Origin: Iocasia fonsfrigidae
GTDB lineage: Bacteria > Bacillota > Halanaerobiia > Halanaerobiales > DTU029
NCBI RefSeq assembly: GCF_017751145.1
Contig: NZ_CP046640.1
Location: forward strand, 3,328,137 to 3,392,136
DNA: 64,000 nt
Reading direction: 5' to 3'
Both the position numbers and the translations under genes were made by a program. The notes beneath the pieces were generated by a model. The model was not told where the DNA came from, searched no databases, and saw nothing but the letters and a program-made list of their open reading frames with translations. Shown one piece after another: positions 13,109 to 53,800 of this stretch. Every line of letters starts with the position of its first letter. The first letter of the stretch is position 1.

Positions 13109-13135
13109 CACTTTTCATTGATATAATTGTAACAT

Positions 13136-49011: not shown

Positions 49012-49668
49012 TCACTGTACAATATCAGCCAGTTTAATATCTTTTATTTTATCATACCTGAAATCAGCCTGTCCAACCCGCTCTTCAGGCCCAATACCAA
49101 CAGTATGCATCCCTGCCGCCAGAGCTGCTTCAATCCCAGACTCTGCATCTTCAATCACAATACATTCCTCAGGTTCCACCTCTAACTCCTCAGCAGCATA
49201 GAGGAACAGGTCAGGGGCTGGTTTATTATTTTTCACACTATAGCCGTCAGCAATAAGCTGAAATTTCTTCCCAATCTCCAGATTTTCAATAACTGTTCTA
49301 GCATTTCTACTTGCTGAAGCAACAGCCAGCTTATACCCATCTTCTTGCAGCTGATTTAATAGTTCCTCTACACCTGGTATAAGATCTTCCATTGTAATAT
49401 TATTAATTAATTCCTGATAATATTCATTCTTTTTAACCATCAACTCTTCCATTTTATCTTCAGGTAGTGTCTTCCCTTTTAGCAAAATTTCCAGTGACTG
49501 CCTCCTGGTTACACCCCTTAATTGTTCATTATCCTCTCTGGTAAAAGATATCCCTTCTTCCTGAGCAAGCTTTTTCCAGCTTTGATAATGATATTCCGCT
49601 GTATCTGTTAAAACACCATCTAGATCAAAAATAACCGCCTTTATTTCTCCCTTATTCCTTTTGCTCAT
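49012..49668 (-). CDS. HAD-IA phosphatase, beta-phosphoglucomutase-like
   Basis: 218 residues. HAD motif I is VIFDLDGVLTDTAEYHYQSW, motif II the ASASRNA segment, motif III the Lys of NNKPAPDLFLYAA, and motif IV VIEDAESGIEAALAAGMHT. The DLDGVLTDT start and RGVTRRQSLEILL cap are close to PgmB, which interconverts beta-glucose-1- and 6-phosphate, but other sugar phosphates are possible. It follows the ABC ATPase by 40 bp and is probably the last gene of the T-box unit; the functional link is not obvious. Confidence 0.85.
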   Translation of the reverse strand: MSKRNKGEIKAVIFDLDGVLTDTAEYHYQSWKKLAQEEGISFTREDNEQLRGVTRRQSLEILLKGKTLPEDKMEELMVKKNEYYQELINNITMEDLIPGVEELLNQLQEDGYKLAVASASRNARTVIENLEIGKKFQLIADGYSVKNNKPAPDLFLYAAEELEVEPEECIVIEDAESGIEAALAAGMHTVGIGPEERVGQADFRYDKIKDIKLADIVQ

Positions 49669-49707: not shown

Positions 49708-50985
49708 TTATATTTTTATTAAGTCTTCGATTAATTGTAAAATATCCGCCGTTTTATTCTTCAAATAACACCCTGGACGCCGCTTAAGTTCCTGCCATAA
49801 TAAAGTAGCTTCTCCCCCTGTAAAATCACGCTCCTGAAACTTCCTTCCCCCCTTAAGAATTATAGTTTTGTCACTTAAATCAAGAAGGAGTTTTAGATTA
49901 TCTAGATTACCATGGCCGAAAGGTGTTTCAGCAAGCAAGATTATATCTGCCTCAGTCATTAACTGTCGGTTATATTCCAAACTCTGCTTACTTATCGGGT
50001 TAAAAGGTGGACTCTCAGCTATCTTAAGGTTTAACCTCCTGGCTGTTTCCCAATCACTATCACCAATATTTAAAACTCCACAACTTAATTGAAAACCCTT
50101 ATTATGAAGCAGGGAAAACATTTTGCGCCCTGAACCACCCCCACATATCAAATGAATTTTAGGAGTATTTTCTGTAATTGTGCTTCTCTTTCCCCACTGC
50201 TTTTTTTTACTACCCCCAGGAACCATAATCAGGTATGGTTTGCCAGTAAAAGGATTCTCCTCAATAATCACATCACTCTGATAGACCTCAGCAATAGTTT
50301 CACTCCTTAATACTTCTGTAGGAATACCTGTCTTATAGACCTGCCCATCCTTTAACAAAATCAGTCTATCACAATATTGACCACTGAGATTAAGGTCATG
50401 TGAAACAAGGATAATCGTAATACCCCTGTACCTATTTAATTTAGCCAGCAAGTCAAATATCTCCCCCTGATAATTAATATCCAGACTGGCAGTTGGTTCA
50501 TCCAGCAGCAAGATATCAGGTTCCTGAGCCAGGGCCCGGGCAATAATCACCCTCTGCCGCTCTCCCCCACTAAGTTTATTAATATTCTCCTGAGAAAAGC
50601 CCTGAGTATCTGTCATCTCCATTACTTCACTTACAATTTCCCTATCTTGCTCACTCACCATGCCCCAGCGATTCTGATACGGTCTTCGCCCCATCATAAT
50701 CAGGTCATAAACTTTAAAATTATAATCAACATTTGTATCTTGAGGTACCACAGCCATTATACGGGCTAAGTCCTCATTAGATACTTTATTTAATAAATAA
50801 TTATCTAGATAAATAACACCCTTATCAGCTGGTAAATACCCGCTTAATGTCTTAAGAAAGGTTGATTTTCCAGAACCGTTGGGCCCAATTATACCGATAA
50901 AATCACCTCTAGTAAGATATAGATTTATCTCCTTTAATACTCTTTTATCCCCATAACTAAAATGAAGTCCTTCTATTTTTATCAT
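49708..50985 (-). CDS. FecE/BtuD-like ABC ATPase with extra C-terminal domain
   Basis: 425 residues. Residues 1-255 are an iron-siderophore/cobalamin-type ATPase: Walker A GPNGSGKST, signature LSGGERQRVIIA, Walker B LLLDEPTASLDINYQG. From about 265 an additional domain follows (KIHLICGGGSGRKMFSLLHN, GDSDWETARRLNLKIAESPP, EADIILLAETPFGHGNLDN), an alpha/beta fold I cannot name. Similar fusions occur with clostridial cobalamin or iron importers. It lies 6 bp after the permease; no binding protein is present in the unit. Confidence 0.9.
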   Translation of the reverse strand: MIKIEGLHFSYGDKRVLKEINLYLTRGDFIGIIGPNGSGKSTFLKTLSGYLPADKGVIYLDNYLLNKVSNEDLARIMAVVPQDTNVDYNFKVYDLIMMGRRPYQNRWGMVSEQDREIVSEVMEMTDTQGFSQENINKLSGGERQRVIIARALAQEPDILLLDEPTASLDINYQGEIFDLLAKLNRYRGITIILVSHDLNLSGQYCDRLILLKDGQVYKTGIPTEVLRSETIAEVYQSDVIIEENPFTGKPYLIMVPGGSKKKQWGKRSTITENTPKIHLICGGGSGRKMFSLLHNKGFQLSCGVLNIGDSDWETARRLNLKIAESPPFNPISKQSLEYNRQLMTEADIILLAETPFGHGNLDNLKLLLDLSDKTIILKGGRKFQERDFTGGEATLLWQELKRRPGCYLKNKTADILQLIEDLIKI

Positions 50986-50991
50986 TTTCTA

Positions 50992-52002
50992 TCACCAGTA
51001 CTCCCCTTTAGTCTTTCGTAATAGGTAAATAAAATACGGTCCCCCTGCTAAAGCAGTAATAATTCCTACCGGTATTTCCATAGGTGCCAGGAGAGTACGG
51101 GCCAGGTTATCACTGACAAGCAAAAACAACCCCCCTAACAGGGCTGCTGCCGGTATCATTTTTCTATGATCCGGACCTATTAATATCCTGACAATATGAG
51201 GTACAATCAGACCGATAAAACCAATAATGCCACTTACAGATACTACTGCCGCTGTCATAAGGGCCGCAGCAATGATCAAGTGTAGTTTAACTCTTTCAAT
51301 ATCCAGACCCAGGTTATAGGCATTCTCTTCCCCTAGTAGTAAGGTGTTTAGGTCATTTATATGGAAAATTATTATAAGCAAAGCTGTAAAATAATAGGGA
51401 AGAATCGTTATAATCTCCTGCCAACTGGCAGTAGCCAGACTACCCATCAACCAGTAAACCACCTTGTGTAAACTGTTTGTCCCTAAAACCATTAAAAAGG
51501 ACATGACAGCATTAAGTAGAAATCCCATTGCTACCCCAGCTAAAAGAAAAGTTATAACCGGAAGGCCCCTTTTACTGTAAGATAAGCTGTAAACAATATA
51601 TACGGTTATTACCGCACCTATAAAAGCCATTAAAGGGATAGTACTTATCCCCAGAAACTCCCAGTCAATATTTAGAATAATAGTCAGGGTTACTGCTGTA
51701 CCAGCCCCAGATGAAATCCCTACAACATAAGGGTCAACCATTGGGTTGCGGATAACTCCCTGAAATACAGCACCAGCCAGAGCAAGCCCTGAACCTACCA
51801 GCAAACTCAATATAACCCTGGGTAAACGAATATTTTTAACAATTAAGCCATAAGTACTCCCACTTTCAGCTGAAAACAATACCCTGATAAGCTGTTTGAA
51901 AGGGATATATATACTACCAATTGACAGGGATAAACTAATTATTATAAGCCCTATCAATAAAAACCCTATAAAAAAAAGCATTGTCTTAATTTTATTATTC
52001 AT
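50992..52002 (-). CDS. FecCD/BtuC-type ABC transporter permease
   Basis: 336 residues, about ten membrane helices. Family marks: RLPRVILSLLVGSGLALAGA, FQGVIRNPMVDPYVVGISSG, and VSVSGIIGFIGLIVPHIVR before the ATPase-coupling loop, LGLDIERVKLHL earlier. Imports iron-siderophore, heme or cobalamin. No cobalamin riboswitch is seen in the 50-bp gap upstream, and the gene appears to share the T-box leader of the aminotransferase gene, which makes the substrate uncertain. Confidence 0.92.
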   Translation of the reverse strand: MNNKIKTMLFFIGFLLIGLIIISLSLSIGSIYIPFKQLIRVLFSAESGSTYGLIVKNIRLPRVILSLLVGSGLALAGAVFQGVIRNPMVDPYVVGISSGAGTAVTLTIILNIDWEFLGISTIPLMAFIGAVITVYIVYSLSYSKRGLPVITFLLAGVAMGFLLNAVMSFLMVLGTNSLHKVVYWLMGSLATASWQEIITILPYYFTALLIIIFHINDLNTLLLGEENAYNLGLDIERVKLHLIIAAALMTAAVVSVSGIIGFIGLIVPHIVRILIGPDHRKMIPAAALLGGLFLLVSDNLARTLLAPMEIPVGIITALAGGPYFIYLLRKTKGEYW

Positions 52003-52052: not shown

Positions 52053-53249
52053 TTAATAATCAATAATTATCCCTGCTAATAACGCTATACCCTTTTCTAT
52101 TTCAGCAGGGGTAGTATCAGAGAATGACAACCTGATATAGTGATTACCATCCTGATAAACCGGGAAAAAAGAATTCCCAGTAACAAAGGCCAATTTATTT
52201 TTAATTGCTACCTGAAATAAATCCCTGCTCTTTATATTTTCCGGCAACCTTACCCAGAAGAAAAAACCACCTTCAGGCTGATACCATGAAGTGTTTTCAG
52301 GAAAAAATTTCTGCAGAGACTCTTCCATCTTTAGTAACCTCGCTTTATAAAAAGGTTTAACCCTTTTTAGCTGTTCATCTACTAAGCCACTATTACCAGC
52401 AAGGGCCAGCAGTTCCTGACCATATGTGTTTGAAGCCAGGTCAGTATTTTGTTTAGCCTTTGTCAATAAATCTATCATCCCTTCCTCAATACAGACCCAA
52501 CCGACCCGCATACCCGGTATAAAAAATTTAGAAAAAGACCCCAGCATAATAACCCGGTTATCTTGATCAAATTCCTTAATAAAAGGCAGTCTTTCATTAA
52601 AGTAATTAAGTTCACTATAAGGAGTATCTTCAATAATATAAAAATCATATCTTTCAGCCAACTCTAAAATCTTTTTTCTCCTCTCCAGTGACAATCTACT
52701 TCCAGAGGGATTAGAATAATCAGGAACCAGATAGATAAACTTAATCTGCTCCCCTTCGGCATATATTCTATCCAATTTTTCTTCAAGGATATTTACACAT
52801 AAACCATCTTTATCAAGATCAATCCCTATAAGATTAGCCTGATAACTCTTAATTGCCCCAATACCACCTACATACCCTGGTTTCTCTACAATTATATTGT
52901 CCCCTGTATTAATAAATATTTTACTGATAAGATCAAGGGCCTGTTGTGAACCAGTAGTAATCAGCAGTTCCTTTTTACTGGTATTAATACCCCTCTCTCC
53001 CAGAAAACCTACAATATATTCCTTGAGGTTGTCAGAACCGTCAGTACTACAATACTGAAAAACCTCTGCCCCCAGATCATTTAAAAGCCTATCATTCAGG
53101 TCTTTTAGTCCGTTATAAGGAAAAACCTCACTGGCAGGGATCCCCCCGGCAAAAGAAAGCACATCCCCCTGACCAACCAGTTTCATAAACTCAGCAAGTT
53201 CACCATTTGACATCTCCTCAACCCTATCAGCAAACAAATTATCTAACAT
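52053..53249 (-). CDS. PLP-dependent aminotransferase, class I (LysN/ARO8-like)
   Basis: 398 residues from the ATG at 53249 (AAGGGG 8 nt upstream). Fold type I: SFAGGIPASEVFP, TTGSQQALDLISKIF, VPDYSNPSGSRLSL, and the PLP lysine in MLGSFSKFFIPGMRVGWV. This subgroup uses 2-aminoadipate, leucine or aromatic amino acids and lacks the N-terminal GntR domain of MocR proteins. The T-box leader and the branched-chain operon just upstream suggest branched-chain transamination (inference). Confidence 0.88.
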   Translation of the reverse strand: MLDNLFADRVEEMSNGELAEFMKLVGQGDVLSFAGGIPASEVFPYNGLKDLNDRLLNDLGAEVFQYCSTDGSDNLKEYIVGFLGERGINTSKKELLITTGSQQALDLISKIFINTGDNIIVEKPGYVGGIGAIKSYQANLIGIDLDKDGLCVNILEEKLDRIYAEGEQIKFIYLVPDYSNPSGSRLSLERRKKILELAERYDFYIIEDTPYSELNYFNERLPFIKEFDQDNRVIMLGSFSKFFIPGMRVGWVCIEEGMIDLLTKAKQNTDLASNTYGQELLALAGNSGLVDEQLKRVKPFYKARLLKMEESLQKFFPENTSWYQPEGGFFFWVRLPENIKSRDLFQVAIKNKLAFVTGNSFFPVYQDGNHYIRLSFSDTTPAEIEKGIALLAGIIIDY

Positions 53250-53306
53250 TAACAATTCCCCTTTCTTATTTTTAAAATTAAGTGGTTTCGTCAGCCTGCT
53301 ACGACC

Positions 53307-53435
53307 GTAATAATTTTCATTCTACCGCTTGTCGTTCACTACGGCATCCGTGCCTCCGCTCTCTGTCAAAACTTTTTGCTCCGGCGTCCTGCCTCTACAA
53401 AAAGTTAGAGTCGCTATAGAATAAAAAATTATTAC
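53307..53435 (-). repeat. Structured repeat, copy C
   Basis: Arms at 53307-53324 and 53417-53435 pair with one bulge (GTAATAATTTT then ATTCTA). The 92-nt core, read on the minus strand, has stem AACTTTTTG/CAAAAAGTT around GGCAGGACGCC, then hairpin GGCACGGATGCC and GTGAACGACAAGCGG. It aligns ungapped to the core of copy B. It lies between the T-box terminator and the aminotransferase start, so it should be part of that mRNA leader. Confidence 0.85.
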
Positions 53436-53453
53436 TTAGCCACCTTAACTAAG

Positions 53454-53512
53454 ACAAATATATTTGTTGGTCTTCAAAGTTATCAACAATTTCAAAATCA
53501 CATAGTTTCTCA
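53454..53512 (+). repeat. IS-end-like repeat D, copy 2
   Basis: The first 38 nt match 33871-33908 with two differences (ACAAATATATTTGTTGGTCT, TCAAAGTTATCAACAATT); the rest (AATCACATAGTTTC) is related more loosely. It starts 19 bp beyond the arm of copy C. Confidence 0.65.
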
Positions 53513-53527
53513 TATGAATAAAACAAA

Positions 53528-53770
53528 ACACCCCTACATAAATGCAGGGGTGTATAATTTACACGGTACCACCATGCTTTGTTATCTATCACAATAACCT
53601 CAGCAAGTGCTGTTTATTCACAGCAGCTTAAGTTTTAACGGTACAACCGATGATTCCTACTTAGATTATGTTCAGAACCCAGCTCCAGGGCGGCTTAATC
53701 CCTTTCCTCACTCTTTATTTATATAATTATAAATATATAAAATATATTTAAACTATAAAACAATCTTCTT
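53528..53770 (-). promoter_or_regulatory. T-box leader with terminator
   Basis: Minus strand: GCCGCCCTGGAGCTGGGTT, TCTGAACATAATCTAAGTAGG, stem CGGTTGTACCG then TTAAAAC, and the T-box TGGTGGTACCGTG (53562-53574), followed by terminator ACACCCCT...AGGGGTGT (53528-53553) with TTTTG. It senses uncharged tRNA. The triplet after GAAC is ATA (isoleucine); ATC follows one codon later, so isoleucine is my reading, with doubt. The 5' half of stem I is replaced by, or embedded in, unusually AT-rich sequence. Confidence 0.88.
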
Positions 53771-53771
53771 T

Positions 53772-53800
53772 ATTATACCACAGCAATTTTATTTAATCAA
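53772..53800 (-). promoter_or_regulatory. Promoter of the T-box unit
   Basis: Minus strand TTGATT (53795-53800), 17 bp, TATAAT (53772-53777), just past the cimA stop. Confidence 0.8.

Follow-up and report, generated by a model that had tools for sequence, protein, structure and literature searches.

Short-stem T-boxes have been described as class III, in which the specifier lies in the apical loop of a short stem I, the IDTM is absent, and stem II is needed, its S-turn clamping the codon-anticodon duplex (PMC10482949; PMC7583486). The apical loop is given as 5 to 6 nt and the control as mostly translational (PMC10482949). In these sources, short-stem T-boxes in general are also mostly translational, and translational T-boxes come mostly from Actinobacteria (PMC10482949; PMC7583486; PMC7778990). 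We found no description of transcriptional short-stem T-boxes in Halanaerobiales in the accessible portions of the open-licence PMC literature.

The DNA analyzed here, which we call the window, is a stretch of 64,000 nt (bases 3328137 to 3392136) of the 3.93-Mb single-contig genome of Iocasia fonsfrigidae (G000), and it carries a T-box ahead of an aminotransferase gene. Like the class III elements of the Nocardia farcinica and Mycobacterium ileS type, this T-box has a short stem I without an IDTM, an apical-loop specifier, a kink-turn, an S-turn in stem II, and a stem IIA/B pseudoknot. Because it has all of these class III parts, it most likely works in the same manner, with a terminator as the output. 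Compared with class III as described in those papers, however, it most likely reads alanine and not isoleucine, has a terminator (i.e., is transcriptional), has a 9-nt loop in place of 5 to 6 nt, comes from Halanaerobiales and not Actinobacteria, and would control an aminotransferase. A further point against the class III-like reading is its kink-turn strand, GAGGA and not GATGA. Since the loop length and the mode of control differ, we call it a class III-like transcriptional variant and do not assign it to class III as published. It shares stem II, stem IIA/B, stem III, and the antiterminator/terminator with class I T-boxes of the B. subtilis tyrS type but lacks the distal stem I with its S-turn and IDTM. 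With the alaS T-boxes of Firmicutes it shares an alanine specifier and the pairing of UGGU with ACCA, whereas the two such T-boxes described in the source consulted have GCU and a usual stem I in place of GCC and an ultrashort one (PMC4695836).

On the basis of sequence comparison, we consider it probable that the element is a transcription-attenuating alanyl-tRNA T-box, that an internal deletion has cut its stem I down to the base, and that the aminotransferase gene is read when tRNA-Ala(GGC) binds. In this mechanism, the anticodon of uncharged tRNA-Ala(GGC) would pair with GCC in the stem I apical loop. With the elbow-binding arm gone, the stem II S-turn, held in position by the IIA/B pseudoknot and the kink-turn, would take its place by clamping this pairing from the side. 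Pairing of the tRNA's ACCA end with UGGU would stabilize the antiterminator, and RNA polymerase would read on into the aminotransferase gene; the three genes that follow, for the permease, the ATPase, and beta-phosphoglucomutase, are probably on the same transcript in this genome. Of all this, comparison establishes the architecture with its conservation and covariation, the codon register, the terminator, and the presence of a matching tRNA in the genome.

The T-box element and the aminotransferase gene

The RF00230 covariance model matched the minus strand at 53717 to 53543 over its full span (61.7 bits, E = 5.8e-13), and an intrinsic terminator follows at 53553 to 53528, which bears out the original prediction of a T-box and terminator ahead of the aminotransferase gene. 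The whole element extends from about 53717 to 53519. Its score is under the RF00230 gathering score of 93 because 72 stem I positions of the model stand as only 5 nt, and the element is therefore missing from a gathering-level Rfam scan of the window.

The ultrashort stem I (53681 to 53712, minus strand), delimited by Rfam alignment and by covariation in five genera, consists of a base helix AGU/GCU, a kink-turn-like GAGGA/GGA, a helix AGGG/CCCU, and the 9-nt apical loop AUUAAGCCG. Rfam alignment likewise places, on the same strand, stem II with its GAA/AGUA S-turn (53652 to 53679; also seen by comparison with relatives), stem IIA/B with the F-box CCGUUAA (53635 to 53649; three invariant pairs in five genera), and the T-box bulge UGGUACC (53565 to 53571), whose UGGU complements the ACCA end of tRNA-Ala (A73). 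The terminator comprises 11 pairs and a T run to about 53519; it was called by a terminator scan and folds better than shuffled sequences (z = -5.14). The antiterminator fragment is not clearly better than shuffles (z = -0.89), and stem I alone is no better, either here (z = 0.54) or in the relative G001 (z = -1.28). The AT-rich stretch that had been taken for a possibly degenerate 5' part of stem I is found at about 53760 to 53716, upstream of stem I and outside it, and stem I itself is not degenerate, being an ultrashort form conserved in relatives.

Between the cimA-like gene and the T-box, a consensus scan found a promoter-like site, TTGATT-17-TATAAT with TG before the second hexamer (53772 to 53800, minus strand; 10/12 matches). 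The scanned region held 29 promoter-like sites versus 17.6 expected, and single sites therefore mean little.

The gene behind the T-box (52053 to 53249, minus strand) encodes a fold type I aminotransferase of the LysN/KAT II/multi-substrate kind by family and structure matches. It belongs to class I/II, and its best solved relatives are 1wst, 1x0m, and 3aov, with the alanine-glyoxylate transaminase 2zc0 also matched. Given an alanine T-box, an alanine-forming role is the simplest guess, and the enzyme probably makes alanine from pyruvate. The stretch between the terminator and this gene (53256 to 53522, minus strand) was found by a repeat search to consist largely of dispersed repeats in at least two separate blocks, with at least 60 matches in the genome, itself included, when 40 of 136 candidates were scored. 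A promoter-like site inside it (53486 to 53457) could bypass the switch. By eye, a sequence similar to these repeats follows the terminator of an ileS T-box of this genome (L005).

Genes downstream of the aminotransferase

The original prediction had named an aminotransferase, a FecCD-type permease and ATPase, and a HAD phosphatase, and family matches agree. All on the minus strand, those behind the aminotransferase are a FecCD-family permease resembling BtuC and HmuU (50992 to 52002; family and structure matches), a BtuD-like ABC ATPase (49708 to 50985; family matches), and a beta-phosphoglucomutase of the HAD type (49012 to 49668; TIGR01990, 250.5 bits versus a cutoff of 189.4). The best NCBIfam matches of the permease and the ATPase are BtuC and a corrinoid ATPase, both below the cutoffs, and the best PDB match of the permease is HmuU. 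As also predicted, no binding protein is encoded nearby, the four Peripla_BP_2 matches in the genome all being elsewhere. The ATPase carries a C-terminal extension of about 160 aa to which the Pfam search assigned no family of its own; among 20 loci from relatives, 19 have a match to it at 37 to 50% identity.

A promoter or a cobalamin riboswitch between the aminotransferase and transporter genes had been named as evidence against a shared unit. In the 50-nt gap between the aminotransferase and permease genes we found neither, nor any Rfam family at the gathering score or any terminator-like site, and co-transcription is therefore plausible. At Rfam gathering scores, no cobalamin riboswitch precedes the transporter anywhere in the window or in 17 relatives' loci. 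Against a single transcript are promoter-like sites inside the aminotransferase gene (52661 to 52633) and terminator-like sites inside the permease gene (51617 to 51600 and 51148 to 51125). The transcript likely ends near 49012, since a promoter-like site (49009 to 48981) comes just before a SAM riboswitch (48960 to 48857) and a homocysteine-biosynthesis/methionine synthase-like unit. The window also contains a THF riboswitch at 13109 to 13011.

The transporter genes could be a functional part of an alanine regulon, with the FecCD/BtuCD-like transporter moving something needed together with alanine synthesis, a possibility to which we give little weight. The empty gap favors it, as does the position of the permease gene directly after the T-box/aminotransferase pair in three of five genera (G000, G001, and G004), an adjacency kept in G004 with no close ATPase match behind it. 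However, other genes follow the pair in G010 and G012, and two long-stem genomes have it among still other neighbors. Permease matches of at least 49% identity occur in 30 of 41 genomes, this one included, and among 20 permease loci fetched from relatives, only two (L046 and L047) had an aminotransferase match and 18 did not, the contig in several of these 18 ending within about 1.2 to 2 kb upstream. The terminator-like sites inside the permease gene also argue against this reading, and the BtuC/corrinoid family matches, together with a neighbor in L065 that looks cobA-like by eye, hint at a corrinoid-type substrate. A general tRNA-FecCD system was rejected, as the transporter block is mostly unlinked to the aminotransferase, and the proposed combination of tRNA sensing with a FecCD-type transporter was seen in three of the five genera. 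The link between the T-box and FecCD looks like a lineage-specific adjacency and not a tRNA-transporter system; the conserved unit is the alanine T-box/aminotransferase pair, and the transporter is probably a neighbor drawn into its transcript.

In other relatives' loci (L048 to L064), the permease-ATPase block is mostly followed by a protein of about 190 to 215 aa and a beta-phosphoglucomutase, often with tRNA or rRNA genes ahead, and in some genomes a protein of about 770 to 790 aa, GH65-like by eye, adjoins the block.

Conservation, specifier codon, and origin of the short stem I

We searched the class for the aminotransferase and read upstream of 18 of the 30 loci returned. Nine have a T-box, ultrashort in four and long in five; eight showed none, and one (L150) was cut by a contig end. 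Counting this genome, an ultrashort stem I precedes the aminotransferase in five genera of three families (G000, G001, G004, G010, and G012), two of the other four belonging to the same family as G000. The loci in which no T-box was found in the stretch examined upstream are L144, L146, L151, L152, and L158 to L161, the first two belonging to this family as well.

In the alignment of the five ultrashort sequences, 71 of 75 helix cells are paired (94.7%), and 6 of 15 pairs are changed on both sides, compared with 0 or 1 in slid versions; as only a few related sequences were compared and their helices were drawn by eye, these shuffle counts are not to be read as probabilities. The 9-nt apical loop A[UC]UAAGCC[AG] is present in all five, and so are UGGU, the F-box, and the terminator. 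The S-turn AGUA is kept in four; the remaining relative, L148, has AUUA, and its kink-turn is hard to draw.

A covariance model built from these five loci (R3) scored the same five at 86.9 to 106.7 bits in 59 genomes of the class, with the next match at 37.9. It also matched 15 class loci weakly; two of these (L188 and L176) were kept, whereas 13 did not look short on inspection by eye, one of them (L180) being a chance match. An earlier model of the whole leader (R1) was left unused for its implausible consensus pairing. Among 398 genomes of the phylum, model R2 gave two strong matches, of 93.3 and 110.1 bits, in this genome and G001; the other 13 scored no more than 41 bits (48.4 at the highest after realignment) and were long-stem T-boxes by eye, except L116, a coding sequence. 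A pattern search for the ultrashort stem in the 59 class genomes returned G001, G004, and L068 (assumed to be chance) but missed G000, G010, and G012, so that the exact pattern is no census. Lastly, a scan of an 84,980-species collection returned 27 stretches, two of which are ultrashort and come from Halanaerobiales MAGs (L127 and L139, apparent counterparts of G004 and G001), while four (L124, L131, L133, and L142) are T-boxes with a long arm in the preceding sequence; no T-box signature was accepted in the other 21. The pattern, R2, and 84,980-species searches were tuned to the alanine form, and other short forms outside the class could be missed by them.

This conservation bears on the view that the T-box is a decaying remnant, in which loss of the distal arm disabled the switch and expression became constitutive or came to depend on a promoter in the repeats. 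The low RF00230 score would fit such decay, as would a stem I no more stable than shuffles, the repeats with a promoter-like site between the terminator and the gene, and the eight aminotransferase loci of 18 at which no T-box was shown, two of them in the same family. We nevertheless think it quite unlikely, given the covariation and the near-invariant loop across five genera, the retention of UGGU, F-box, and terminator in all five and of the AGUA S-turn in four, and the equivalent short forms ahead of aminoacyl-tRNA synthetase genes in the same order (see below).

We place the specifier of the alanine T-box at 53692 to 53694 (minus strand), where GCC is followed by the purine G53691, a register taken from Rfam alignments, long-stem orthologues, and four other ultrashort T-boxes. 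When nine T-boxes of this genome, that of the window included, are aligned to RF00230, the codon lies directly before the 3' end of stem I, usually in the context GAA(N)-XYZ-N-CCYU..GGAG with A or G mostly following it; the exceptions are a C after the codon in L001 and L014 and the absence of GAA in L012 and L013. Clear cases are UUC before a DAHP-synthase-like gene, CUC before leuS, UCC before serS, and GUC before valS, the downstream genes having been named by eye from their translations and the valS leader read by eye. At this place the T-box of the window reads AGGG-AUUAAGCCG-CCCU, and the codon is therefore GCC, for alanine. Applied to the four other ultrashort T-boxes, the same register yields AUC ahead of ileS in two, CCC ahead of an ornithine cyclodeaminase gene, and UCC ahead of serS. 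A pattern search of the genome found three tRNA-Ala genes, one with GGC and two with UGC; the anticodon GGC is complementary to GCC, and this tRNA-Ala(GGC) ends in A73-CCA, complementary to UGGU. The specifier is placed 1 to 5 nt upstream of a conserved GAG in a paper on T-box regulons (PMC2494555), GCC obeys the C-rule for third specifier positions (PMC7778990), and published alanine T-boxes favor GCU, not GCC (PMC2494555; PMC4695836).

The window T-box thus most likely reads an alanine tRNA, not an isoleucine tRNA, as judged from these alignments. The original prediction had taken the ATA after GAAC as the specifier, calling on the lysidine tRNA-Ile; the covariance alignment it had proposed for fixing the codon puts this ATA (53669 to 53667) in stem II and gives GCC (Ala), neither ATA nor Ile. 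GAAC-ATA comes after stem I has closed and forms part of the stem II hairpin, whose own GAA/AGUA S-turn mimics the GAA-codon context and makes the specifier easy to misread. It is very improbable that the codon is one for isoleucine or leucine, either this ATA or the AUU or UUA in the short loop. On that reading, the switch would serve branched-chain metabolism, as does the citramalate synthase gene that lies upstream of the T-box next to leuB/leuD/leuC-like genes (the latter named by eye), and L147 has CUA, also leucine, at the UUA position. L147, however, has ACU in place of AUU, which led us to reject AUU, and the GCC register, in keeping with the C-rule, is backed by eight T-boxes of this genome, the orthologous long-stem T-boxes, and the four other ultrashort ones.

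The long-stem T-boxes in question precede aminotransferase orthologues of 44 to 47% identity in five genomes of another family (L153 to L157). Their codon position reads GCC, then A or G, then CC (two were checked by Rfam alignment); as gene and codon agree across the short and long architectures, they support the GCC specifier independently. In the alignment, which allows two registers for the 5' side, the short form looks like the loss of the whole arm between the 5' (A)UUAA and the 3' GCC. From this comparison, the likeliest origin of the short stem I is an internal deletion fusing the 5' (A)UUAA side of the loop to the 3' GCC-R-CC side. A short, terminator-bearing alanine T-box with a long-stem counterpart before an orthologous gene offers a direct test of the role of the distal arm in co-transcriptional tRNA capture. 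By eye, another genome, G351 (L109), has a long-stem T-box with GCC (AGC or CCC are also possible) before an AsnC-like gene and a different aminotransferase, a possible parallel.

Other short and intermediate T-boxes in the class

We ran RF00230 over 22 genomes of the class in two sets of 11; in this survey, other short forms were recognized by eye. All 120 matches of the first set were extracted, and those with a short F-box distance or no AG[AC]GA motif were read; a short form fitting neither filter would be missed. The second set gave 118 matches, of which nine, mostly short or weak, were fetched and 109 left unread.

Eight T-boxes of the first set are ultrashort, namely, the alanine elements of G001, G004, G010, and G012 and four others: two with AUC before ileS in two genomes (L188 and L229), one with CCC before a gene for a nickel-pincer ornithine cyclodeaminase (L230; TIGR00300), and one with UCC before serS (L231), whose bulge UGGC fits a G73 tRNA. 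Six more are intermediate, keeping AGUA/GAA under a short capping hairpin. These have UAC before aroA (L227) and before an NhaC-type antiporter gene (L228), UUC before two DAHP synthase genes (L239 and L240), ACC before thrS (L176), and CUC before leuS (L235). Among the nine matches fetched from the second set, we found no ultrashort form and two intermediate ones with UAC before DAHP synthase genes (L313 and L319; genes named by eye). The intermediate tyrosine form occurs in three families, in three of four cases before aromatic pathway genes. In G000 itself, 1 of 15 T-boxes is ultrashort by eye.

The codon is compatible with the downstream gene in all ten non-alanine short forms of the first set, going by NCBIfam names, although the gene was known when each codon was assigned from its position, and aroA and DAHP synthase genes would suit any aromatic amino acid. 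The two ileS pieces end at the locus edge and score under the NCBIfam cutoff; NhaC was counted as compatible because control of NhaC transporters by tyrosine T-boxes has been reported (PMC2494555). Departures from the usual context are a U after UUC in L240 and a UGGG bulge in L176. By eye, a hairpin and then a T-rich stretch follow in all ten; a script that looked for five consecutive T's had no match within the interval searched in L188 and L240. Every T-box that we call ultrashort or intermediate scores below the RF00230 gathering score, and the short forms here thus escape searches run at that score.

The eight intermediate forms (L227, L228, L235, L239, L240, L176, L313, and L319) resemble, by eye, class IV as in the Actinomyces ileS leader, with an intermediate stem I, no IDTM, and a side-bulge specifier, but they have terminator-like hairpins and Tyr, Phe, Thr, or Leu specifiers; the window element is shorter still. 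Taken together, it seems fairly likely that in Halanaerobiales the distal half of stem I was lost from T-boxes repeatedly while control by transcription attenuation persisted. The resulting class III/IV-like elements would be functional sensors of at least eight amino acids (Ala, Ile, Pro, Ser, Tyr, Phe, Thr, and Leu), and the short design would not be bound to ileS, to translational control, or to Actinobacteria. If such repeated loss is true, the alanine T-box, which occurs in a short and a long version ahead of the same gene, would amount to a deletion experiment made by nature on whether recognition of the tRNA elbow can be dispensed with.

Two further T-boxes came to light in these readings. 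A partial long-stem-I T-box (L316; G047:C1:211225-211386) lies just upstream of another T-box (G047:C1:211445-211720) before an ilvB-like gene, possibly a tandem or a remnant. In G000, a T-box with an apparent CUC (Leu) codon (L011; G000:C1:1061809-1062066) precedes a gene whose product looks by eye like a carbon-starvation transporter of the CstA type.
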